DNA from: an uncultured Schlesneria sp.
Lineage (GTDB): Bacteria > Planctomycetota > Planctomycetia > Planctomycetales > Planctomycetaceae
Assembly: GCA_903899985.1 (NCBI GenBank)
Contig: CAIULL010000237.1
Location: 1 to 38,562 of the forward strand
Direction of reading: 5' to 3'
Length of the DNA: 38,562 bases
The notes below the pieces were generated by a model. That model was not told where the DNA came from and ran no database searches. It was given only the letters and a program-made list of their open reading frames with translations. Positions 7,900 through 19,133 of this stretch are shown here, one piece after another. The translations under genes and the position numbers were made by a program. Each line of letters begins with the position of its first letter. Within the stretch, counting starts at the first letter, position 1.

Positions 7900-9360
7900 T
7901 CACCGGCGCTCCTCATTCGGCAGAAGCAAAACAATCTCGGTACCGTGCTCTGTGTTACCAACGTGAATTTCTCCACCGTGGGCTTCCATAATCCGCCTGG
8001 CAATGGCCATTCCCAATCCTGTTCCGCGTGATTTTGTCGTATAAAAAGGTTCGAAAATACGAGCCCGTTGTTCGGGGTTCAGGCCTGGTCCGTTGTCGCG
8101 GATCGCGATTGTCAATCCGGGCGTGGCAGCACCTGTCTCCCCGCCGAACTCGATGTTGATTTTACCGCCCGATGTGGGGAGGACAGAAATGGAGTTTTCA
8201 AAAATGTTTCGCAGGACCTGGCCAAAACGGTGTCGGTCGATGTGACGGACCGGCGAAACTTGCGCCGGATCGATGGTGAATTCAATCTGCTTCTGGCTGC
8301 GGGATGTTTTCAAATGTTCCCAGACTTCCTCACAGATCGTCTGTAAATTCCATTCGCGAATTTCCAGGACCAGCGGCGCTGCGTAACCGCGTACCTCTTC
8401 ATAAAGTCGCTGCAATTCATCCACGGCGACTTGAGAACGCCGGGCCAGGTTCAAAAGCTCGGGCCGGTCTTCCAGATCCAGTTCGAGCATTTCGAGGCAG
8501 GCTTGTGCTCGTTGCAGCGCGTTACGGCTTTCATGCGCCAAGGCGGTCATCATCTGGCCAATCGCGGCCAGACGCTCGGCTTGCACAACCTGCTGTTGCG
8601 CCCGCATTTGATCCGTCACATCGTGCAGCAGCCAGACTTCATCGGAACCATCACGAAAGGCGGTCAGTTCCACCCAGCGCGATTGACCGTTGCGACGGAT
8701 TAATTCCCAGGTGCGAGTTTGCGGAAAATTCGCTTCCCGATCGATCAGGTATTGTTCGCGGACCTTGGATGCCCGCTGTTGGAAAAGGACGTCAAACCAT
8801 CGATCGACCGTGTCCAGATCCTGGCGACTGTATCCGGTGATCTCTTCGGTGGCCCGGTTCATCTGAATCGAATTGGCCGAGATATTGACGGCCCCTGCCG
8901 GGAGGTTATCGACCATGAAACGAAGTCGCTTATGCGATTCCAATTGTCGACGTTCCGCCTCAACCCTTCGTCGTTCCGTAATATCGACAATATGAACCAT
9001 GACTTGCATTCCGTGTTCTGAAGGCAACGGATGAAGGCTGATATCGCAGGGGAATTCGGTTCCATCTTTCCGGCGAGCAGAAAGGTCGCGACCTGAGCCG
9101 AGCTGTCGTACATCGGGTGCCGTCAGATAGTGATTTCGCAATTCGACGTGTAACGGTCGGATACTGTCGGGAACCAGAAACTCGATGAATTGGCCCATCA
9201 CTTCAGATCTCGAATAACCAAACCACTTTTCAATTTGCGCATTGATCAGTTGAATTTTTCCCGTTTCATCGACCAGGATCACTCCGGCCGGTGACGCTTC
9301 AACGACCTGGCGAAAGCGTGCATCCGGAAGAAATTCCTGGGGATTGGTGTTGTATGTCAT
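7900..9360 (-). CDS. PAS-domain sensor histidine kinase
   Basis: A 486-aa soluble kinase without membrane segments. Two PAS domains come first: residues ~13-130 (FRQVVEASPAGVILVDETG, then WFGYSRSEVMGQ) and ~145-260 (a second sensor including GYSRQDLDTVDRWF). Then the dimerisation/phospho-acceptor helix ALAHESRNAL with H276, and a HATPase domain with N box (IFENSISVLP), G1 (DNGPGLNP), F box and G2 (TTKSRGTGLGMAI). It should autophosphorylate and pass phosphate to a response regulator, most likely the CheY-like protein encoded next. The PAS domains might sense redox or a ligand; no heme-binding signature could be assigned with confidence. It follows the oxidase accessory genes by 15 bases, which argues for co-transcription and a link to respiratory control (inference). 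Confidence 0.9.
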   Translation of the reverse strand: MTYNTNPQEFLPDARFRQVVEASPAGVILVDETGKIQLINAQIEKWFGYSRSEVMGQFIEFLVPDSIRPLHVELRNHYLTAPDVRQLGSGRDLSARRKDGTEFPCDISLHPLPSEHGMQVMVHIVDITERRRVEAERRQLESHKRLRFMVDNLPAGAVNISANSIQMNRATEEITGYSRQDLDTVDRWFDVLFQQRASKVREQYLIDREANFPQTRTWELIRRNGQSRWVELTAFRDGSDEVWLLHDVTDQMRAQQQVVQAERLAAIGQMMTALAHESRNALQRAQACLEMLELDLEDRPELLNLARRSQVAVDELQRLYEEVRGYAAPLVLEIREWNLQTICEEVWEHLKTSRSQKQIEFTIDPAQVSPVRHIDRHRFGQVLRNIFENSISVLPTSGGKINIEFGGETGAATPGLTIAIRDNGPGLNPEQRARIFEPFYTTKSRGTGLGMAIARRIMEAHGGEIHVGNTEHGTEIVLLLPNEERR

Positions 9361-9375
9361 GCTCGAAAGTCCATC

Positions 9376-9867
9376 TTACGTCGAATTCACCAATCCGACC
9401 TTTGTGGCTAAAATGCCGATCACGAGCAGGTGGACGAGGAATACCAGTACGCCGACACCGATCAGCGTATGCGAACCATCGTCTTTACCTGGCTTGCGAT
9501 GAAAAATACGGGTCGCCACAACCGCGCAGATCCACTGCCAGTGAAACATCACGTGCACAACGACGGCCGCCGCAAAGATACAATAGGTTGTAAACAAGGC
9601 TTCCGACCAGTCGAGCGGCGTTGCGCCCCAGATTTTCCAGTCCGATCCGGCACCACGCGGAAAAACAACGCGAAGCACGGCGAACATCCACGCTTGAATC
9701 ATAAACAGGATCAGCAGCAGAACGTCGAGCCAAAAGTTGATAAGCGTGTTGTAACGACTCCAGAAAGTCCCTTTCGGCGAGGTTTTCTGCGCAACAGTCA
9801 CGTGTTCCGATGATGGAACTTCCGAAGGCGCGACCTCTGTTTCTAGTGGCTTCATAATGGACAACAT
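9376..9867 (-). CDS. DUF4405-like small membrane protein in the oxidase cluster
   Basis: A 163-aa protein with a ~38-residue hydrophilic N-terminus and three or four transmembrane helices: NFWLDVLLLILFMIQAWMF (~44-62), TTYCIFAAAVVVHVMFHWQW (~93-112) and a C-terminal GVGVLVFLVHLLVIGIL. The helix-borne histidines (VHVMFHWQW) resemble DUF4405-type cytochrome-b-like membrane proteins, whose paired histidines may bind heme. It starts six bases after the SafE-like gene ends and 15 bases before the kinase gene, so it is almost certainly in the same operon. A role in oxidase assembly or in passing redox state to the kinase is conjecture. The start could be the ATG at 9867 or the one at 9855; neither has a clear ribosome-binding site. 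Confidence 0.7.
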   Translation of the reverse strand: MLSIMKPLETEVAPSEVPSSEHVTVAQKTSPKGTFWSRYNTLINFWLDVLLLILFMIQAWMFAVLRVVFPRGAGSDWKIWGATPLDWSEALFTTYCIFAAAVVVHVMFHWQWICAVVATRIFHRKPGKDDGSHTLIGVGVLVFLVHLLVIGILATKVGLVNST

Positions 9868-9873
9868 CGCAAA

Positions 9874-10677
9874 TTATGGTTGAGGGTTCTGATTGATATT
9901 TGCGACCGGTTGGACGGTCAAGTCGACGGTCGGGGACGACTCGCCTCGAAGTAACACCGGAGGCTTCAATGACGTTTCTTTGCAGAAGGGGCACGAAACG
10001 GCTTGTGGTTCGGTTTGCAACTGCAGGAATCCGACACCACGGCCGACCGTCAGCAGTCCCGTCATCACGACGGACCAGGCTGCGACCTGCCACAGTCGCT
10101 GGCGCGCCGTCCAACTGAGCAGCGCCGCTCCACATCCCGTGACAACCATTAAGGGAACTGTTCCCAATCCGAATGCCAGCATTGTACTGGCGCCGAGCAG
10201 CAAGTCACCGGAACTTGCGGCCAGCGAGACGAACGCATAGACCAGTCCGCAGGGTAACAGCCCCGTGATTATTCCCGCAGCAAACGTATTGCGCGCTCCG
10301 GGCGTCTTCAATATCGTCGAAAACAAGGGACCGAGAAGGCAACCTGTGGTTGACGATCCTGTGATCCGTCGCGCAAACAAGCCCGTCGCCAAAAGTCCTT
10401 CTCGGACAAGAAACAATCCGGCAGCAAGACACAAGACCGCCGGGACATTAATCATTTTGGGAAGGGAATCGGAAAGTCGCTGTCCCGCGAAACCGGCGAT
10501 TGCGCCAAGGGTTGCGTAACTCATTAAACGACCGGCGCTGTAGATCAGCTGAGCACGCAGATTTCCAGCAAGTGACCCCGTGCGAAGTCCGACGATCGCC
10601 GCAAAACCTCCGCACATTCCCACACAGTGAGACGACCCCAACAGACCACCCAGCATCGTTAACCATAAAGGTGTCAT
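9874..10677 (-). CDS. SafE/UreH-like membrane protein of the oxidase cluster
   Basis: A 267-aa protein with about six transmembrane helices. The N-terminal SSHCVGMCGGFAA motif (residues ~15-27) is the hallmark of the UreH-like branch of the TauE/SafE/DsbD-related family, members of which often accompany cbb3 oxidase and CcoI/CopA genes. A second characteristic segment is GIITGLLPCGLVYAF. The paired Cys in HCVGMC and the PCG motif suggest a metal or thiol-redox role, and copper or heme delivery to the oxidase is the usual hypothesis. The ATG overlaps the ccoI stop in an ATGA, indicating translational coupling. The C-terminal ~55 residues after the last helix are unusual, with CPFCKE (a CxxC), and may add a periplasmic or cytoplasmic metal site. 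Confidence 0.82.
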   Translation of the reverse strand: MTPLWLTMLGGLLGSSHCVGMCGGFAAIVGLRTGSLAGNLRAQLIYSAGRLMSYATLGAIAGFAGQRLSDSLPKMINVPAVLCLAAGLFLVREGLLATGLFARRITGSSTTGCLLGPLFSTILKTPGARNTFAAGIITGLLPCGLVYAFVSLAASSGDLLLGASTMLAFGLGTVPLMVVTGCGAALLSWTARQRLWQVAAWSVVMTGLLTVGRGVGFLQLQTEPQAVSCPFCKETSLKPPVLLRGESSPTVDLTVQPVANINQNPQP

Positions 10678-12863
10678 GATCTCGCCTCGTCCGGGGTCGT
10701 GGCATTCAAAGTCGCCTGGAGATGCGAGTCGGAACCGTCAGCGTCATACATTTCCCTCGGCGCGAACGGCCCATCGGCTGACAAGCGAAGCGAGTTACCC
10801 AGCACCATCAGGCTGCTGACGACCATCAAGACCGCCGCGACCGCAGGATGCAGCTGCCCGCAGGCCGCCAGGATGACACCAATACTGTTGTAACCAAACG
10901 ACCAAGCAAGATTTGTCCGGATCGTTCTTACCGTCAGCCTGGAAAACTCATAGGTCCATGGGATCAATCGTAAGTCGCTGGAAAGCAGGCAAACGCCAGC
11001 GGAATCACGGCTGACATCCGCTCCGCAACCGAGCGCGATACCGATATCAGATCCCGCTAATGCCGGGGCGTCGTTCAGGCCATCGCCGACCATCGCAACG
11101 CTGCCAAACCGCTCATGTGCCGCACGAATCGCGGTGAGTTTGTCCTGCGGCAAAAGTTCTGCGGCAACGGGAATCCCGAATGTTTTCGCCAGACCACCCG
11201 CTCTCGCCACTCGATCACCCGTTAACACGGCCTGGTCAAGCCCCAGCTTCTGGCAGTCCTGCAGCACTTCAAAGGCTTCCGGACGAATCGTTTCTTCCAA
11301 CAGAAACAAGCCCTGGACTCGCCCGTTGTACCCGATTGCCGTCATCGGACATTCGGCAGTCGCCGGATCACGAATCACACGTGACAGATTCGGTCCCCAG
11401 GCCAGTCCACAATCGTCCATCCAGCGAATCGCCCCGAGCAGCGCGACTTGGCCGTCATCCAGTGTTGTGCGAAGACCTCGCCCCGGGACTGTCTGCACAT
11501 TAAGGGAAGAATCAAGTGGCTCGACCCCCAACAGGAACTCGCCAATCGCCAGGGAAAAGACATGATCGGACGCCTCGGTGATCGACGCAGCAATCTGTTC
11601 GATCGATGCGCGGTAAGCAGCATCTTCACAAACGAACTTTAACACGCTGGGCTTGCCCGTTGTCAGTGTCCCGGTTTTGTCCCAGCGTATCGCCCGAATC
11701 CCTGCCAGCGTTTCTAATGCCGATCCGCTGCGAACGAGGACCCCTTTCTTCGCAGCCGTTCCGAGTGCCGCCCACACCGCTAACGGGGTCGCTAAAGCCA
11801 GCGCACAAGGGCAGGCAATCAACACAACTGATAATGCGGTCAGCAGGCCGTAGTCCCAGTCAACTCGCAGACCATGGAAGATCAACGCGGCAAACGCGAT
11901 GACAGAAATAATGGGAAATACGCATTGCGACCAGGCATCGCTCAGTTGTTGATAATGCCCCTTTGACAAACGAGCAGCACGAACGGCATTGACCAGCCGC
12001 CCCAAAGCCCCTGCATTGGGTGGGGCTGTCACTTCAATGATTAAATCGCCGTCAAGGTTTAAACTACCACCCAGCAAGAGATCGCCCGCTCGCTTTTCGA
12101 CAGGAGTACTTTCACCGGTAAAGAATTGTTCATCCACGACCCCATGTCCGTTGACGACTCGTCCGTCGACAGGAATTCGCTCGCCCGCAATGACATGCAG
12201 GTGATTCCCGACAGACACCTGCTGCCTCGGCGTGACGACATCGACGCCAGCTTCTCGCCGGCGCACGGTCTCGGGAACCAGTCGTTCGAGTTGATCCAGC
12301 GCGGTCGAGGCTTGAGACCGGCCTGCCGCTTCCAGCCATCTGCCAATCGTCACCAGGACAAGAATGACGCAACCCACTTCGTAATAGACGTGACCGCCCC
12401 CCCGCAAGGTGCTGACGATCGATACGGCGAAGGCTGCGATCACACCGGTCGCCAAAAGGAGATCGGTTGTGAACAGACCTCGTCGCAGGCCGGTGATGGC
12501 GTGACTGACGAGCGGTCGTCCAAGCAGCAATAGCACTGGAAGCGAAAAGGCCATGGCGCCGTATCGCAAAAATGCCCCTAAAGCCTCTTCAAAGGGGGTT
12601 TGAGGCTGGGCGGCGTAACTCCACAACGACATCGTCAGCATGACGACGTTCATCGTGAAAAAAACCGAGAAACCTAAGGCTGTTGCCGGACCCATGGGGT
12701 TCGTCGACGTATCCGGCTGGGAAGAAATTCCCGCTGCAAAACGACAACCGAAACAGCAGTACGAGGGTTCGTCCTGCAATGCCGATCCAGACAACGGTAA
12801 CCCGCAGTAGTCACAGGTTGCTGCATCGGTCGCGACATCAGTTATCGGTTTCACTGATTTCAT
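10674..12863 (-). CDS. ccoI: Copper-translocating P-type ATPase CcoI/FixI
   Basis: A 729-aa P1B-type ATPase that moves copper for loading into the cbb3 oxidase. The N-terminus carries a Cys cluster, CDYCGLPLSG then YCCFGC (residues ~19-40), as in CcoI proteins, but no recognisable ferredoxin-like HMA domain follows. Eight predicted helices include the ion-site motif C351-P352-C353. The A domain has TGES, the P domain DKTGTLT with D395, and the hinge GDGLNDAPAL. The usual N-domain His-Pro dipeptide appears as SDHVFSLAI, with Val for Pro. The ATG (12863) overlaps the preceding 59-aa gene by ATGA, and its stop overlaps the next gene the same way. Position and Cys cluster favour CcoI over a general CopA. 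Confidence 0.92.
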   Translation of the reverse strand: MKSVKPITDVATDAATCDYCGLPLSGSALQDEPSYCCFGCRFAAGISSQPDTSTNPMGPATALGFSVFFTMNVVMLTMSLWSYAAQPQTPFEEALGAFLRYGAMAFSLPVLLLLGRPLVSHAITGLRRGLFTTDLLLATGVIAAFAVSIVSTLRGGGHVYYEVGCVILVLVTIGRWLEAAGRSQASTALDQLERLVPETVRRREAGVDVVTPRQQVSVGNHLHVIAGERIPVDGRVVNGHGVVDEQFFTGESTPVEKRAGDLLLGGSLNLDGDLIIEVTAPPNAGALGRLVNAVRAARLSKGHYQQLSDAWSQCVFPIISVIAFAALIFHGLRVDWDYGLLTALSVVLIACPCALALATPLAVWAALGTAAKKGVLVRSGSALETLAGIRAIRWDKTGTLTTGKPSVLKFVCEDAAYRASIEQIAASITEASDHVFSLAIGEFLLGVEPLDSSLNVQTVPGRGLRTTLDDGQVALLGAIRWMDDCGLAWGPNLSRVIRDPATAECPMTAIGYNGRVQGLFLLEETIRPEAFEVLQDCQKLGLDQAVLTGDRVARAGGLAKTFGIPVAAELLPQDKLTAIRAAHERFGSVAMVGDGLNDAPALAGSDIGIALGCGADVSRDSAGVCLLSSDLRLIPWTYEFSRLTVRTIRTNLAWSFGYNSIGVILAACGQLHPAVAAVLMVVSSLMVLGNSLRLSADGPFAPREMYDADGSDSHLQATLNATTPDEARS

Positions 12864-13039
12864 GGAGGCGTCAACAGCTCAGTTTGAATAGCGGGCAGGA
12901 AGTAAGCAACGACGTATCCGATGGCAAACACCCAGAAGAACAGCCAGATCAGGCGGACGTACCACGGAATGACGTGACTGGCGTAGGTATGGAAACGTGA
13001 TTCTTGTTCCGGCGAGGCGGATTCCGGTGTCGAGTTCAT
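12860..13039 (-). CDS. 59-aa one-helix membrane protein, CcoP N-terminus-like
   Basis: A short gene that length cut-offs would miss. The 59-aa product has a polar N-terminus (MNSTPESASPEQES), then an IPWYVRLIW entry followed by FFWVFAIGYVVAYFLP, a single transmembrane helix, and a short tail. The pattern Pro-x-Trp, aromatic-rich helix, FAIGY, Tyr, Pro is what the FixP/CcoP N-terminal anchor looks like, yet no cytochrome domain follows. It lies between the 97-aa protein gene and ccoI, and its stop overlaps the ccoI ATG (ATGA), so translation is coupled and the frame is very likely real. Function is inferred: a detached CcoP membrane helix, or a CcoQ/CcoS-like stabilising subunit. The ATG at 13039 was chosen as the first in frame. 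Confidence 0.75.
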   Translation of the reverse strand: MNSTPESASPEQESRFHTYASHVIPWYVRLIWLFFWVFAIGYVVAYFLPAIQTELLTPP

Positions 13040-13146: not shown

Positions 13147-13440
13147 TTACGGCTGAGAATCCAATCGCTTTTCATTTTCCATCATCGTGTGACTGGGACC
13201 ATCAAGATTTTGAAAGGCTCCTTGAGTGGCCGTCCAGACAAACAGGCAAAGGAATCCTGCCGTAGCGAACAAGTAATTACAAATTGGCGTGACGGCAAAA
13301 GCGCCGTCTTCGTCCCCTTGAACGACCAGGACCAGATCCAGAAATTTGTTTGCAAACCCCAGGATTGTCGGGATCAGAACCATTGCGGAAAAGAACCAGG
13401 TCAGCCAATGCGTACGATAAGGCTGGCGTTGCTCTGACAT
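13147..13440 (-). CDS. 97-aa two-helix membrane protein in cbb3 operon
   Basis: Not recognised by family. The 97-aa product has a short basic N-terminus (RQPYRTHW), helix 1 (LTWFFSAMVLIPTILGFANKF), a ~20-residue loop with acidic residues, helix 2 (YLFATAGFLCLFVWTATQG) and a polar tail. It begins six bases after the ccoO stop and carries an ATG preceded by ggag about nine bases upstream, so it belongs to the oxidase operon. Plausible roles are a small structural subunit or an assembly factor comparable in size, though not in sequence, to FixH/CcoH. It lacks Cys pairs or clear heme ligands. Confidence 0.75.
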   Translation of the reverse strand: MSEQRQPYRTHWLTWFFSAMVLIPTILGFANKFLDLVLVVQGDEDGAFAVTPICNYLFATAGFLCLFVWTATQGAFQNLDGPSHTMMENEKRLDSQP

Positions 13441-13446
13441 GATCAG

Positions 13447-14133
13447 TTACTCCGTTTTCGAAGCGGTTTTGATAGGAACAGGGATGTAGTCTTCATAGTA
13501 AGGATACGTCTCGTGCCATGAGCCGAGCCATTGAATATAGGTGAGCAGCGCCAGGCCACGGATCGTTGGTTTATCCGGAGCACCATCGAACAGCCATGGA
13601 TATCGCGGCATGGGTGATCCAACCGAGAGTGCTTCTGGATTGAAGAAGTGCACCGCCTGCCAGTCGCTGGATCGCCGTCCCCCCTCTCGGCAGAGGTCAG
13701 GTCCGACGCGTCGCGTACCAAACATCACCGGGCGTTGAAGTTCGTTCTGGTATTCCCATGATTTGGATACGGGTCCCCACCGACGATCTTCGTTCGAAAC
13801 CGGCCGGACGAACTGGCTATGGCAGTGCCAGCACCCTTCTCCCACATAGATCTGATGACCCAGCTTTAAAGCGCTTTCGCAATGATCGTTGTACCAGGTG
13901 CTGGCTTGTTCGGGATCGGCTGGCGGCTGGCCATAGGCTTTCTCAAAGGCTTCCGGGAATCGCTGAGCGAGATCTTCGAACTGATAACGCAAATTGCCGT
14001 TGATCAGTTCTTTAACCGACTTTTCCGGCATGTGCTGATACATCAACACCGGAACAACGGCATTCGAAAGAAAAGCCAAGGCGAAAAAGCCGATGCCTGC
14101 AATCAAGATGATGCCGGACTTACGTTCGAACAT
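13447..14133 (-). CDS. ccoO: cbb3-type cytochrome c oxidase subunit II (CcoO/FixO)
   Basis: A 228-aa monoheme cytochrome c subunit that passes electrons to CcoN. It has one N-terminal anchoring helix (IILIAGIGFFALAFLSNAVVP), then the periplasmic domain with heme motif C101-W-H-C-H105 in GCWHCHSQFVRP, followed by the family motif GTRRVGPDL and the Met-ligand region SPMPRYPWLF. The C-terminus LLTYIQWLG matches CcoO. The ATG at 14133 has aaggg eight bases upstream. It lies 172 bases downstream of ccoN, the widest gap within the cluster, which leaves room for processing or an internal promoter. Length is close to the normal ~200-240 aa. Confidence 0.95.
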   Translation of the reverse strand: MFERKSGIILIAGIGFFALAFLSNAVVPVLMYQHMPEKSVKELINGNLRYQFEDLAQRFPEAFEKAYGQPPADPEQASTWYNDHCESALKLGHQIYVGEGCWHCHSQFVRPVSNEDRRWGPVSKSWEYQNELQRPVMFGTRRVGPDLCREGGRRSSDWQAVHFFNPEALSVGSPMPRYPWLFDGAPDKPTIRGLALLTYIQWLGSWHETYPYYEDYIPVPIKTASKTE

Positions 14134-14305: not shown

Positions 14306-15730
14306 TCACGCCGTGGCCAGTCCTGAAGCAGGTTCCGTGACCGAAGTCGATCGCGGAGCGTTGCGCCAGGTGAGATAGAAATTCAAAAGGAACAATAACT
14401 GGGCGGCAAAAATCACCAGTCCCGCGACCAGACGAACTGACCAGAAAGGAAGCGAAAGTCGAATCGACGCATCCCAGGGTTGCAAGGCGGCCCACGACCA
14501 ACCCTGGAACAAGCCACCCAGAATCAGGTCACCAGACATGACCAACAACCCGCCTGCAGAGGCCCAGTAATGCCATTCACACCATTTCGTGCTGTACCAT
14601 TCGGTTTTGAGAATCCGGGGAACCAGATAGGTCATGACACCAAGTTGCCACATGCTGAAGACACCGAACATCACCATATGAGCGTGACCCACGACCCAGT
14701 CCGTAAAGTGGATCAGTGCCTGGAACGTCATTGTCACCTGCAGCGCACACTGCAGACAGGTCAGGAAGTAGAACAGGATCCCGGTGTAGAAATATCGCAG
14801 TGGAAGATTGGTGACCACCAGTCCGCCGGTACCGTACAGCGTCCCGACAAAGTTGATGATCACGGTCACAACGACCAGTTCCAGAGCGATCGTGGAAAGC
14901 ACCGCACCGTACTGCAGGAACATCGGGATTGGCGTGTAGAGAAAGTGGTGAATCCCTTGCAGCGGATAAAAGAACGCCAGACCCCAGAATCCGACAAGCG
15001 AAAGACCGTGACTCCACATCGGTCGCTTCAACAGGATCGGTACGAAGTAGTACATCATTCCCCAGCCCAGCGGCGTTACAAACAGACCGACCAGGTCGTG
15101 AATGAACAGTCCTCCGACGGCCCCGGCGCTGGACCCGCAGACAAAGTACTCTGGCACGAAATTGCCCATCGCATAGGTCAGAAACGTCCAGACCAGTGCT
15201 GCCAGGTAGTACCACAGCGTGACGTACATCGGGCCACGCGTCTGTAAAATCGGGGCTCCGAAATTAATGGCGACAAGCAAGAGTCCCAGCTGAGCAACAG
15301 GATCGATCCAGACTGGCGTTTCACCCCATTCCAGACCCTGGGCTTGACCGAAGATGAGCCCGACTGCTGTGGCCAGCACAACAAATTGCCAGGCAGCAAA
15401 AATCAGGTACGAGAGCTGACGATTGAGGCAGGGACGCAAAGTCAATCTCGGTATGACCCAGTGCATGATTCCCAGAAACGCGTTCGCGAGAAATCCATAG
15501 GCGATCGCGTTTGTATGAATCATTCGCCAGCGGCCCGGCGAAAGGATTTCAATCGCCGGAAGCGGATTATGTCGAATCAGCTGCAGCCCCATCAATGTCC
15601 CTGCTAACATCGACACTGTCATGAATGTCAACGCCGCAACGAAGTACCAGAGCACCAGCCGCTCTTCCACCAGATCCTGATGCTTGGGGAAATTACGATC
15701 AGCAGTGACAACATTTGTTCCAGCACTCAT
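14306..15730 (-). CDS. ccoN: cbb3-type cytochrome c oxidase subunit I (CcoN/FixN)
   Basis: The 474-aa catalytic heme-copper subunit with twelve predicted helices, which reduces O2 to water and pumps protons across the inner membrane. Ligands are in place: H72 (IHTNAIAYGF) for the low-spin heme, H211 (FIHDLVGLF) and H261-H262 (QGIHHFLYTPIP) for CuB, and H349 and H351 (VGHAHMVMFG) for the two hemes. Y255 in FFYPLQGIHH is placed to be the helix-VII tyrosine that cross-links to a CuB histidine in C-family oxidases; this and the HFTDW motif mark it as cbb3 rather than aa3. The ATG at 15730 has agga eight bases upstream. It follows the coiled-coil membrane protein gene by 90 bases. Confidence 0.96.
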   Translation of the reverse strand: MSAGTNVVTADRNFPKHQDLVEERLVLWYFVAALTFMTVSMLAGTLMGLQLIRHNPLPAIEILSPGRWRMIHTNAIAYGFLANAFLGIMHWVIPRLTLRPCLNRQLSYLIFAAWQFVVLATAVGLIFGQAQGLEWGETPVWIDPVAQLGLLLVAINFGAPILQTRGPMYVTLWYYLAALVWTFLTYAMGNFVPEYFVCGSSAGAVGGLFIHDLVGLFVTPLGWGMMYYFVPILLKRPMWSHGLSLVGFWGLAFFYPLQGIHHFLYTPIPMFLQYGAVLSTIALELVVVTVIINFVGTLYGTGGLVVTNLPLRYFYTGILFYFLTCLQCALQVTMTFQALIHFTDWVVGHAHMVMFGVFSMWQLGVMTYLVPRILKTEWYSTKWCEWHYWASAGGLLVMSGDLILGGLFQGWSWAALQPWDASIRLSLPFWSVRLVAGLVIFAAQLLFLLNFYLTWRNAPRSTSVTEPASGLATA

Positions 15731-15820: not shown

Positions 15821-16477
15821 TTATGATTCCTGGCTGGTTGGTTGTGTGTACGCCTGGAATTTGGCCCAGGGATAAAGCAGTGCCAAGGTCCATCCGAAAA
15901 CGAGGTGTGTCACCAATGCAACCCAGCTCGGCAAGTATTCAGGATTCGTGATCCAGTTTCCGCCAAACAGTAATGGCTGTAACCAGGACAGAATTCCCCA
16001 GAAGTTAATGGCCCAAAGCAGCGTCGCCAGGATCGTGGCGATGAACAGTCGATAGATGACCGACTTACCTTCGGTCAGCCAGACCAGCGAGACAAAGAAC
16101 GGTATCCCCAGGACCATGCCTGTCCCAAGGTACAGACAGCAACCGATGGCGAGAATCACTCCGTCACCGATGACGTAAACATCCTTGACACCCGAAGCAA
16201 GTTCCAGAGCCTTCTCACCAAGCGGGAAGGTCAAGTAGATCCGAATCAGTTCCAGCGGACTCTTCTTGGCAATCGGGGCACCGATCACGTTCACCAGCAG
16301 GCTGAGTGCCGCACCGAACATCCCCAGGATGAACCCGGTTGTGGCGTAGTATTCGGCGTAAAAGCCTTTGGGTGGCCATTGCCCGGCCGTTTTTTCGGCT
16401 TCAACCTGGGTTTCAAGCTCCCTGACCCGAGTCCGGAGTTCTTCCAGTTCCTGAACCTTGCGAGCGTCGACTGTCAC
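15821..16477 (-). CDS. Coiled-coil membrane protein of the cbb3 cluster
   Basis: Not recognised by family. The 218-aa product starts with a charged ~30-residue heptad-like coiled coil (KVQELEELRTRVRELE), then has four predicted helices: GFILGMFGAALSLLVNVIGA, DGVILAIGCCLYLGTGMVLG, LFIATILATLLWAINFWGI and VALVTHLVFGWTLALLYP. Between the first two lies an amphipathic LTFPLGEKALELASG segment. The GTG at 16477 is the start because aagga lies eight bases upstream; a longer reading from a TTG at 16510 lacks a ribosome-binding site. It sits between the cytochrome c lipoprotein gene, 33 bases away, and ccoN, so it is likely an oxidase-associated subunit or assembly factor. It carries one helix histidine (VTHLVFGW), too few to claim a heme. 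Confidence 0.8.
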   Translation of the reverse strand: MTVDARKVQELEELRTRVRELETQVEAEKTAGQWPPKGFYAEYYATTGFILGMFGAALSLLVNVIGAPIAKKSPLELIRIYLTFPLGEKALELASGVKDVYVIGDGVILAIGCCLYLGTGMVLGIPFFVSLVWLTEGKSVIYRLFIATILATLLWAINFWGILSWLQPLLFGGNWITNPEYLPSWVALVTHLVFGWTLALLYPWAKFQAYTQPTSQES

Positions 16478-16510
16478 AGAGATAGTCCTTATGAACGAGA
16501 TTACGAACAA

Positions 16511-17530
16511 CTACTTCGCCGGGACATACGGCTTAATCGCACCTGGAGTCGGAATATCCCCGCGACGCCGCTTGTCCGTCAGCGACAGTACGTAGGCCAC
16601 CAGATCCCAGACCGTTTCTGGTTCTTCTTTCAAAACATTCGCGAAACTGGGCATCGGAGTACCGTTGATTCCGTTGTAAATCCGGCGATAGATGTCGATG
16701 GGCCGGTTACCGCCGTGCAACATCCCAGACGTCAAGTCCGCCGCTCGCGTCTGAAAGCCCCAGGCATCGGCTCCGCGATTGTCGGCCGTCTGACCTCGTC
16801 CATCCTCACCATGGCACTTTGAGCAGCCACGTGTCAAAAACGCCTTCTTGCCCCGCTCAACAAACTCCGGAGTAAATCGTGGCTGTGGCGACGCGGGAAG
16901 AACTTCAGCAGCCTCTGCTTCTGACCACCGAGTCAGCACCGCAGGAATCAAGTCGCTTTTCACCTCATCGGAATTCACGGCGCTGTCCGAATCGGCCATG
17001 TCAATAACCTGCCGTTCCAGCTCACCCCGGCGACCCAACGTCAGCACATAGTCGACAACGGACTGCACATCTGCCTCTGGCAGCAGATTGAATCCCGGCA
17101 TTGAAGTACCACGAATCCCCTGCCGAATCGTACGAACCAGGTCGTCACGCAGCGGGCGATAGCCGTAGGGTGTCGAGGCGAATTTGAAAATCCCTTTGCG
17201 GTAGTCGCGAGGGCGTGGGTACATATATTTTGCAGAAGGCCCATTGCCGTCGCCACTGACGCCGTGACACTGGACGCAACGTTCCTGATAGACCGCCTGG
17301 CCGCGACCGAGATCCTGATGGCTATCACCATCGGCAATCAGCATCTTCGGCTTAAGAAACGTTCCGGTCTGCTTTACCATTTCAGCTTGAACAGCCTGCT
17401 GCAGTTCGGCAGACAAGTCTTTTGCCGTTTCGCTGATTACAAATTGAGGCGGCTCGGATCGATGACAACCGATCACACACAACATGGCCAGCGCGCCGCA
17501 CAGAGACATCCATCGATCCGGATGAAGCAC
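16511..17530 (-). CDS. Diheme cytochrome c lipoprotein (CcoP-like)
   Basis: A 339-aa periplasm-facing lipoprotein with two class-I cytochrome c domains. Domain 1 has C85-V-Q-C-H89 and a Met ligand in GTSMPGFNLLP; domain 2 has C236-S-K-C-H240 and GTPMPSF. The N-terminus MLHPDRW followed by a hydrophobic stretch and lipobox VIGC gives lipid attachment at Cys22. The GTG at 17530 is taken as the start: gggag lies about six bases upstream and it yields a compact signal, whereas a GTG at 17626 would bury the signal. Heading the oxidase cluster, it should feed electrons from the bc complex or cytochromes to CcoO/CcoN in place of CcoP, which normally carries two hemes on a TM-anchored chain. Both inter-domain spacings are normal. 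Confidence 0.9.
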   Translation of the reverse strand: MLHPDRWMSLCGALAMLCVIGCHRSEPPQFVISETAKDLSAELQQAVQAEMVKQTGTFLKPKMLIADGDSHQDLGRGQAVYQERCVQCHGVSGDGNGPSAKYMYPRPRDYRKGIFKFASTPYGYRPLRDDLVRTIRQGIRGTSMPGFNLLPEADVQSVVDYVLTLGRRGELERQVIDMADSDSAVNSDEVKSDLIPAVLTRWSEAEAAEVLPASPQPRFTPEFVERGKKAFLTRGCSKCHGEDGRGQTADNRGADAWGFQTRAADLTSGMLHGGNRPIDIYRRIYNGINGTPMPSFANVLKEEPETVWDLVAYVLSLTDKRRRGDIPTPGAIKPYVPAK

Positions 17531-17804
17531 TTTACTCTCCCAAGGAGACCGATACCAAAGTTTTCCAGTGACTGTCTTTTCAAAACCAGAAAGACAGGCT
17601 CGCACCCGTCTCAACTGCAAAATCACTGCTGACTCAAACGGAACGCAATTCGGATGCCAATCGGGATCCTGAATGAAAAGACGTGGTTTAAGCCGTGAAT
17701 TTGGCGGAAACCAGCATCACGCGCGAAATCTGGACCGTGTGCCTTCTGTGTGCGGCCGTGTCACAACACGTGCGGAAGCTGTGCGGATTTGTCACAATCA
17801 GGGG
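17531..17804. promoter_or_regulatory. Divergent promoter region of the oxidase cluster and NtrC gene
   Basis: 274 bases separate the cytochrome c lipoprotein gene (minus) from the sigma-54 activator gene (plus). Promoters for both should lie here. I could not find a perfect -24/-12 site. The best partial match, on the minus strand around 17616-17631, keeps the -12 GC but not the -24 GG. No clear activator palindrome was found. Confidence 0.5.
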
Positions 17805-19133
17805 ATGGAACTTTTGATTGTTGAAGATGACGACGATTTCCGTGCCATCGCTGCCCAGTGGATGGCGCGTAAAGGTCACCGTGTCGCCGAAGCCTCAGAC
17901 TGTCGATCGGCATTGGAGTTAACTCGACAGCGACAATTCGAAGTGGCAATTCTTGATGCGAACTTGCCCGACAGCTCTGGAATCGACCTTCTGCAGGAGC
18001 TTCGCAATAAATCCGAAGAAATTGAAGTAATCATCCTGACGGGCGAAGCCACCGTCGAGACAGCGGTCGAGGCGATGAAACGCGGGGCCTGCGACTATCT
18101 TTCAAAACCGTTTCCTCTGGCCGCGCTCGAAGAACGGTGTGTCAAAGCGGCCGAGCGGGGGCGTTTGCGACGTGATGGACTGCGCTGGAAGACGGTCGCC
18201 GAACGAAATCGCCCGACGCCAGTTCTGATTGGCGAATCACCGCAGATGCGAGAAGTCTACCGCTTGATTTCCCGGGTTGGCCCCACGGACGCTCCCGTTC
18301 TGATTCAGGGTGAAACAGGAACGGGCAAAGAACTGACAGCACTCGCGATACAGCGGGTGAGTCGGCGAGTCGACCAACCGTTTGTGACGGTGAACTGTGC
18401 CGCCTTGCCAGAACAACTGGTCGAGAGCGAATTGTTTGGACACGAGAAAGGGGCTTTTACAGGGGCCGTGAAGTCACGACCTGGTCTTTTCGAGATTGCC
18501 GATCAAGGGACATTGTTCATCGATGAAATTGGCGAACTTCCGCCAAGCCTGCAACCGAAACTGTTGCGGGTCCTTGAGGACGGGTCGCTTCGACGGGTCG
18601 GGGCGTCACAGGAACGTCGCGTTGACGTCCGCATCATCGCGGCAACAAATCGCGATCTGGTGAAAGAAGTTCGCGAGCAGCGCTTTCGTGAAGATCTCCT
18701 TTACCGGATTAATGTGATGTCAATCACCTTACCTTCACTCCGGGATCACTCAACGGATATCCCGTTATTGATCCGTTACTTTCTGCCCCATGAATGGGGT
18801 ATCGACGCGGACGCGGAAGCGCTGCTCACTCGATATCGCTGGCAGGGAAACGTACGACAACTGAAGAACATCCTCGAACGAGCCACAATACTCGCGGAGG
18901 GAAACATTGTGACCATTGATGATCTCCCAGCGGAAATTGTGAATTCGACCGACGCTGCCGAATCCTCATTCGCCGTTCAAGGGGACACAAATCTGGAAAC
19001 GATCGAACGGACACACGTCCTCGACGTCCTGCAGAAATGCCAGGGAAACAAATCTCAAGCGGCCCGAATGCTTGGGGTTCACCGACGTAAGCTGTATCGA
19101 CTGATGGAGCGCCTGGGACTTCCCACAAAATGA
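17805..19133 (+). CDS. Sigma-54-dependent response regulator (NtrC family)
   Basis: A 442-aa transcriptional activator. The receiver domain has the acidic pocket EDDDD (7-11), phospho-acceptor D51 and the LSKPF lysine. The AAA+ domain has Walker A GETGTGKE (169-176), the sigma-54 contact loop GAFTGA (216-221) and Walker B LFIDEIGE. A Fis-type helix-turn-helix ends the protein (NKSQAARMLGVHRRKLYRLM). It should open promoters bound by sigma-54 RNA polymerase once phosphorylated. The ATG at 17805 is chosen because the receiver fold begins with it; gggg directly precedes it, too close for an ideal ribosome-binding site, and upstream GTG/ATG codons would add non-conserved residues. No kinase gene is adjacent. 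Divergent placement from the oxidase cluster suggests regulation of it, possibly served by the kinase at 7.9-9.4 kb. Confidence 0.93.
   Translation: MELLIVEDDDDFRAIAAQWMARKGHRVAEASDCRSALELTRQRQFEVAILDANLPDSSGIDLLQELRNKSEEIEVIILTGEATVETAVEAMKRGACDYLSKPFPLAALEERCVKAAERGRLRRDGLRWKTVAERNRPTPVLIGESPQMREVYRLISRVGPTDAPVLIQGETGTGKELTALAIQRVSRRVDQPFVTVNCAALPEQLVESELFGHEKGAFTGAVKSRPGLFEIADQGTLFIDEIGELPPSLQPKLLRVLEDGSLRRVGASQERRVDVRIIAATNRDLVKEVREQRFREDLLYRINVMSITLPSLRDHSTDIPLLIRYFLPHEWGIDADAEALLTRYRWQGNVRQLKNILERATILAEGNIVTIDDLPAEIVNSTDAAESSFAVQGDTNLETIERTHVLDVLQKCQGNKSQAARMLGVHRRKLYRLMERLGLPTK

Follow-up and report, generated by a model that had tools for sequence, protein, structure and literature searches.

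The window analysed here is a stretch of 38,562 nucleotides from an uncultured Schlesneria sp. of the Planctomycetota (assembly GCA_903899985.1, contig CAIULL010000237.1, positions 1 to 38,562 of the forward strand). Its minus strand carries an operon for a cbb3-like oxidase, and within this operon lies a very small gene, here called x59, which encodes 59 amino acids. We consider it fairly probable that the x59 product is a free-standing homologue of the N-terminal anchor of CcoP/FixP, most likely serving as a small structural subunit of the cbb3-like haem-copper oxidase. The x59 reading frame starts with ATG, encodes a C-terminus ending in ...LLTPP and closes with a TGA (12862-12860) that runs into the start codon of ccoI, the P-type ATPase gene (12863-12861), in an ATGA overlap. 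The protein has a Pro25-Trp26 entry to its helix, a FAIGY core and a Tyr/Pro exit, and CxxCH is absent. An initial annotation of the window had reported a reading frame at 12860-13039 with these same sequence features, the ATGA overlap and no cytochrome domain, and all of these were found; the strand is minus. Read along the minus strand, the operon comprises, in this order:

16511..17530, minus strand: dihaem cytochrome c lipoprotein, with PF00034/PF13442 and a match to TIGR00782 (ccoP) below the cut-off
15821..16510, minus strand: 229-aa multi-helix membrane protein, family unassigned, a conserved partner in Planctomycetales-type operons
14306..15730, minus strand: ccoN, the catalytic subunit, of a Gln-type clade (PF00115, 198.7 bits)
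13447..14133, minus strand: ccoO, the monohaem subunit (PF02433, 110 bits)
13147..13440, minus strand: 97-aa protein, conserved between ccoO and x59, whose C-terminal half is CcoS/FixS-like and which has an additional hydrophobic stretch at its N-terminus
12860..13039, minus strand: x59, 59-aa single-helix protein, the proposed free-standing homologue of the CcoP/FixP N-terminal anchor, linked to FixP_N via bridging proteins
10674..12863, minus strand: ccoI-type copper P-type ATPase (TIGR01511, 427 bits, above the cut-off)
9874..10677, minus strand: DsbD_2/TauE-like membrane protein (PF13386, 134 bits), conserved after ccoI
9376..9867, minus strand: 163-aa membrane protein with a weak DUF4405 match (PF14358, 17.6 bits, below the cut-off), found near the operon in some relatives

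AlphaFold2 predicted x59 as a single long helix spanning residues 26-56, with a mean pLDDT of 98 in block 31-40 and 96 in block 41-50, and with a low-confidence N-terminus. Profile searches recognised no Pfam or NCBIfam family in it, a profile search of the PDB returned one chance match (E 1.3), and a search of plasmid records returned nothing at E<=1. Among the 150 genomes of the same family, 72 contained an x59 match at E<=0.1, and 67 of these matches were strong. After five genomes with weak x59 matches and ten with low-identity CcoN were set aside, x59 was present in 64 of the 67 family genomes with a window-type CcoN (the exceptions being G063, G115 and G118), and in three further genomes (G008, G112 and G143) x59 was present with no CcoN match listed. 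We also collected 80 homologous oxidase loci by CcoN similarity, the closest of them from Schlesneria and up to 98% identical to the window. An x59 match was found in 67 of these loci, including two cut by a contig end (L047 and L065), and in two more (L079 and L086) the start of x59 is visible where the contig ends; L070 lacks x59, and the contigs of the remaining ten stop short of the site. Counted in this way, 69 of the 70 loci whose contig reaches the site carry x59. Across the phylum, the x59 profile matched 42 of 392 genomes at E<=0.01.

Alignment A1 combines the window with 64 of the 67 x59 loci (L035, L047 and L065 were omitted), and eight positions are invariant among its 65 sequences: H17, Y19, P25, W32, F35, W36, Y42 and P49. 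The more distant sequences come from loci L125-L142, of which 15 of 18 make up the distant set (L134, L136 and L141 omitted) and 17 of 18 make up alignment A3 (L141 omitted). Close pairs of x59 genes gave dN/dS values of 0.015-0.22, while some pairs gave no value, their synonymous sites being saturated. The initial annotation had named a dN/dS near 1 and a lack of homologues beside cbb3 genes in other genomes as observations that would speak against its proposal, and neither was seen. A spurious or drifting reading frame, which is contradicted by conservation, dN/dS, synteny and presence across homologous loci, was rejected on these grounds and has a negligible chance of being right. x59 is a real gene, conserved, under purifying selection and part of an operon.

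The CcoN subunit encoded with x59 differs from the canonical one. The Glu of the FEGP motif is a conserved residue of canonical CcoN. It was retained in 27 of 27 enzymes with a fused CcoP and replaced by Gln in all 115 CcoN of the window type (97/97, 4/4 in bridging loci described below, and 14/14). The haem and CuB histidines and the active-site Tyr were retained in all four groups, the first His being aligned to a gap in 7 of 81 rows. In a tree of 58 CcoN sequences, 31 window-type and deeper sequences were set apart from 27 fused-CcoP sequences by a branch with 100/100 support. The 31 are the window, 14 of the 80 window-type loci (L070 included) and 16 of 20 deeper loci; the 27 are 19 of 20 planctomycete fused-CcoP loci and 8 of 10 plasmid loci, proteobacterial and Bacteroidota. 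The tree is midpoint-rooted, has a very long inner branch and one row flagged as long, and leaves the bridging loci outside. As read from these alignments and the tree, there is a distinct CcoN clade in Planctomycetota that is of the Gln type and goes with a stand-alone anchor helix. Five solved chains matched the window CcoN, and they are named cbb3 subunit I/CcoN or 'cytochrome-c oxidase'. Separately, at L234:4478-7408 a frame holding CcoN and CcoO stands with a CcoP-like partner (FixP_N below the cut-off), and this CcoN appears in the alignment without several ligands, with Tyr replaced by Gln and one CuB His by Arg.

In canonical cbb3 oxidases a single CcoP polypeptide combines the anchor helix with the cytochrome part, which has one or two c-type haem domains. 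x59 is not of this form, the haems being on the separate gene at 16511-17530. No match to the CcoP/FixP anchor family FixP_N (PF14715, gathering cut-off 24.9 bits) above the cut-off was found in the window's own genome, where the best score was 13.3 bits, and the only good CcoN match there is the window's own, the next scoring 35 bits; the full CcoP elsewhere in the genome that would have counted against the initial annotation was not seen. FixP_N was found above the cut-off in 78 of the 392 phylum genomes, stand-alone matches in G502 and G260 included. The lists of genomes with x59-profile and FixP_N matches overlapped in only two, G497, where the two are on different contigs, and G493, where a weak x59-profile match (E 0.003) lies far from the FixP_N match. 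When 40 loci were compared, 20 fused-CcoP loci had no x59 match and 20 x59 loci had no FixP_N match. The 20 planctomycete loci collected with FixP_N encode CcoN and CcoO in one frame together with a monohaem CcoP. CxxCH was found in none of 159 frames holding a stand-alone helix, some genomes being counted repeatedly. In every examinable locus of the clade with Gln-type CcoN, separate genes encode the helix and the cytochrome.

The relationship of x59 to the CcoP anchor was approached through stand-alone relatives that bridge the two. Loci L227 and L228, found through small FixP_N matches in the phylum scan, encode stand-alone helix proteins of 46 and 55 aa (start codons chosen by hand) beside a CcoS-like gene in operons whose CcoN is of the same type, and these helices match FixP_N above the cut-off, with 30.6 and 29.1 bits. 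Two other stand-alone helices, in L237 and L238, came to light through the x59 profile and were selected since their genomes had weak FixP_N matches on other contigs. They match the x59 profile with E 4.4e-8 and 4.8e-7 in the collected loci (4.7e-4 and 1.6e-4 at genome scale), and FixP_N was the only family listed for them among the 24,736 in Pfam, with E 0.004 and 0.021, below the cut-off. An alignment of the bridging helices with x59 (A4) has an invariant Pro and, 17 residues later, an invariant Tyr. The same spacing separates P25 and Y42 of the window protein, both of which also fall in invariant columns of A1 and A3, and was seen by eye in canonical CcoP N-termini; it is a pattern noted in this analysis and lies outside Pfam's definition of FixP_N. 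The stand-alone proteins are 46-77 aa long, counting those rows of A3 and A4 that begin at an ATG. For A4 and model D, rows were hand-picked for diversity.

Models built from stand-alone helices only were then ranked against the 4,093 ORFs of 20 canonical loci, 20 of which are CcoP. A hand-picked profile of 11 stand-alone helices, from which L227 and L228 were left out, placed CcoP N-termini at ranks 1-10 of 4,093 (best E 0.0009). None of 30 column-shuffled versions of this model gave ten of ten, the best giving seven of ten; for this shuffle test the CcoP set also included the L177 CcoP ORF, which the motif filter had overlooked. A larger x59 set with L237 and L238 placed CcoP at ranks 1, 2, 3 and 5 (best E 0.19), and the x59 set without them at ranks 1, 5 and 6 (best E 2.7). 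When the phylum was scanned with A4, 72 of 392 genomes gave a match, counting weak ones, and the scan also fell on the FixP_N matches of G508, G240, G151, G287 (at a contig end) and G316 with E 2.5e-6 to 0.009. This overlap is not independent evidence because A4 contains L227 and L228, which were found with FixP_N. Because the bridging stand-alone relatives match FixP_N and the ranking test recovers CcoP N-termini, we regard x59 as probably linked to FixP_N. The likeness to the CcoP/FixP anchor proposed in the initial annotation thus gained a path through these intermediate proteins, whereas in the profile search that it suggested the window protein itself did not match the FixP/CcoP N-terminal family.

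Several observations weigh against homology with the CcoP anchor. The window protein gave no match to Pfam FixP_N, and FixP_N was matched by one of the 65 x59 sequences (E 0.55) and by none of the 17 distant ones. Aligned directly with 29 planctomycete CcoP anchors by hhalign (29 of 30, L143 having been missed by the motif filter), x59 reached a probability of only 52% and a score of 23.6. With CcoP from ten plasmid records it reached 5% alone and 19% when these were mixed with the planctomycete anchors; the ten records, from proteobacteria and one Bacteroidota, gave ten CcoP, ten CcoQ, six CcoH and nine CcoS, and the first 95 residues of the CcoP from L217 apparently stop short of the anchor motif. 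Among decoys, which were other membrane helices, one CcoN helix (28.3) outscored the CcoP anchor, 1 of 45 in one set and 0 of 38 in another, the two sets overlapping in origin. When only the Planctomycetales rows (A1) were used, 2 of 100 column-shuffled anchors did at least as well as the real one, and in the ranking test these rows placed CcoP just 3rd and 5th, with E of about 9 and 10. Even the best ranking model, whose rows were hand-picked, scores a single CcoP weakly (best E 0.0009). The DGIxExDN motif that precedes the helix-start Pro of the anchor is absent from x59, where the window has HTYASHVIP, and canonical CcoP anchors show no clear charge bias of the kind described below for x59. 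In the operon of L070 the ccoS-like gene nearly abuts ccoI (at 2500-2760), the sole case without x59 among the 70. Finally, comparisons of single helices are prone to chance matches. On the other side, none of 100 column-shuffled anchors reached the score of the real anchor with the wider x59 set, and partial forms of the motif (SGIxE, IPExxxxxxP) occur in L227, L228, L237 and L238. Because one CcoN helix decoy scored higher, we dropped the direct profile comparison as proof and regard it as suggestive only.

This weak direct comparison leaves some room for x59 being a small oxidase subunit or assembly factor that is peculiar to its lineage and unrelated to CcoP, in the manner of CcoM, CcoX or CcoQ, its likeness to the CcoP anchor being convergent. 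Small membrane proteins of this kind are encoded with or bound to cbb3 oxidases (CcoM, CcoX (DUF4006), CcoQ and CcoH; PMC8267372, PMC10433244), and CcoM, CcoX and CcoH appear as accessory subunits in PMC8267372. Both the bridging proteins and the ranking test speak instead for homology with the CcoP anchor. In hhalign, x59 scored 13.7, 11.5 and 8.3 against CcoQ, CcoH and CcoS, respectively, and DUF4006 was not among the Pfam families listed for the 65 x59 and 17 distant sequences. An unrelated subunit is unlikely in our judgement.

The distribution of charges around the helix bears on these alternatives as well. In 59 of 65 x59 sequences and in 14 of 17 distant ones, the N-terminal flank of the helix is the richer in Lys and Arg. 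CcoQ (9/10) and CcoS (9/9) carry their positive charges on the opposite side, and with the low profile scores this led us to reject x59 as either of them. CcoH shows the same pattern as x59 (5/6), and x59 might accordingly be thought a reduced CcoH (FixH) in which the membrane helix alone was kept; its place right before ccoI, as in canonical ccoGHIS clusters, would fit, and so would a FixH search of the window's own genome, in which the sole match over the cut-off was a partial one in a 978-aa frame on another contig (24.5 bits). However, hhalign against six CcoH N-termini gave 11.5 and 8.8, which is the level of the decoys, FixH (PF05751) was not among the families listed for the window, the 65 sequences or the 17 distant ones, and the helix is not always beside ccoI in sister operons. 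The decoy-level scores and the absence of FixH matches largely refute this assignment, and we regard it as very unlikely.

The dihaem cytochrome at the head of the operon was examined as the possible partner of the helix. Its frame at 16511-17530 contains a lipobox-like site (...CVIG|C) and two CxxCH, in agreement with the separate cytochrome lipoprotein of the initial annotation. A lipobox-like site was found in 66 of 68 Planctomycetales-type ORFs of this cytochrome, and the frames of the other two begin immediately upstream of the first haem. Among 15 deeper cytochrome ORFs, four were called lipoproteins by an automatic rule (L206 doubtful by eye), and most of the others have a hydrophobic N-terminal stretch. 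Because it has its own lipobox or hydrophobic N-terminus, the cytochrome needs no tether from x59; the idea that x59 holds it to the membrane is weakened, and a structural piece is more likely. In 13 sister loci (L227, L228, L237, L238, L272, L273 and L276-L282) a dihaem module is fused to CcoO, giving three CxxCH in one frame, and these operons also hold a stand-alone helix gene. Given this fusion of a like module to CcoO, the lipoprotein is probably an oxidase subunit and the functional counterpart of the CcoP cytochrome domains, a role that the initial annotation had considered. At L274:2691-4454, a frame with seven CxxCH lies directly upstream of a Gln-type ccoN; the genome, G260, has a second Gln-type operon (L228).

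Other genes of the operon were examined as well. The 229-aa membrane protein has 21 invariant positions in 55 sequences; it exceeded the cut-off of no Pfam or NCBIfam family, and a fold search of the PDB gave nothing at E<=0.001; among the 20 x59 loci L197-L216 it was matched in only five, some loci being cut by contig ends. The 97-aa protein scored 18.2 bits against FixS, below the cut-off of 23.1, and reached 92% probability against nine canonical CcoS in hhalign; its CcoS-like gene sits before x59, not after ccoI. By eye, the operon is flanked by a PAS histidine kinase and a sigma-54-type response regulator, at 7900-9360 (minus) and 17673-19133 (plus), which are possible regulators.

If x59 is a free-standing CcoP anchor, its helix, judged from the charges, would have its N-terminus inside and its C-terminus outside, and would sit against CcoN at the site of the canonical CcoP helix. 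There it would stabilise the CcoNO core and help to dock the dihaem cytochrome c lipoprotein, from which electrons would pass to CcoO and on to CcoN.

To call x59 one half of a split CcoP implies a fused ancestor. A never-fused ancestor would fit equally well, because the stand-alone cases that were placed lie in a CcoN clade set off by one long branch. It is conceivable, and compatible with x59 being an anchor homologue, that the two-gene state is ancestral, that the anchor was never fused and that canonical CcoP arose by fusion; all stand-alone cases in the tree form one CcoN clade beyond the 100/100 branch, and no stand-alone-helix frame has a haem motif. The tree, however, is unrooted and sampled mainly from one phylum, and loss by splitting fits as well, so that we hold this polarity to be a lesser but serious possibility. 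A more specific form, in which the Gln-type enzymes, with their stand-alone anchor helix and a dihaem cytochrome that is either separate or fused to CcoO, branched off early among the C-type oxygen reductases, before CcoP was formed from anchor and cytochrome, x59 being the unfused ancestral subunit, is put forward only tentatively and is on the unlikely side.

Among the open PMC papers listed by our searches, none was seen to describe a stand-alone CcoP anchor or a Gln-type CcoN clade. If our reading is true, the CcoP anchor is an independent module with a job of its own besides holding the cytochrome, and if the unfused ancestral reading is also true, x59 would make the assembly history of cbb3 oxidases readable. 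x59 is short, divergent and unseen by Pfam and NCBIfam, so that such oxidases may be described as lacking CcoP. The oxygen affinity, proton pumping and electron route of the Gln-type subgroup in Planctomycetota cannot be assumed from proteobacterial enzymes.

Compared with known systems, x59 resembles the CcoP/FixP anchor (PF14715) in having one helix, a Pro at its entry, a Tyr 17 residues on and a place in a ccoNO operon. It differs in being a separate small protein with no cytochrome domain, in having HxYxxN for DGIxExDN, and in that the window member lies below Pfam detection. With CcoQ and CcoH the likeness is that of a small membrane protein with a cbb3 oxidase, no sequence link having been found by hhalign. 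In the supercomplex of R. capsulatus, CcoN helices 8 and 9 and the CcoP helix border the interface with complex III, where the helices of CcoH and cytochrome cy are also found (PMC7876108). In N. gracilis, subunits I-III of the cbb3 oxidase form a single 954-aa fusion (PMC3578206). This fusion and the planctomycete fused CcoNO with a monohaem CcoP resemble the x59 operon in that the same modules are rearranged between genes. Those two layouts, however, are fusions or cytochrome truncations, whereas the x59 operon would instead present the anchor alone.

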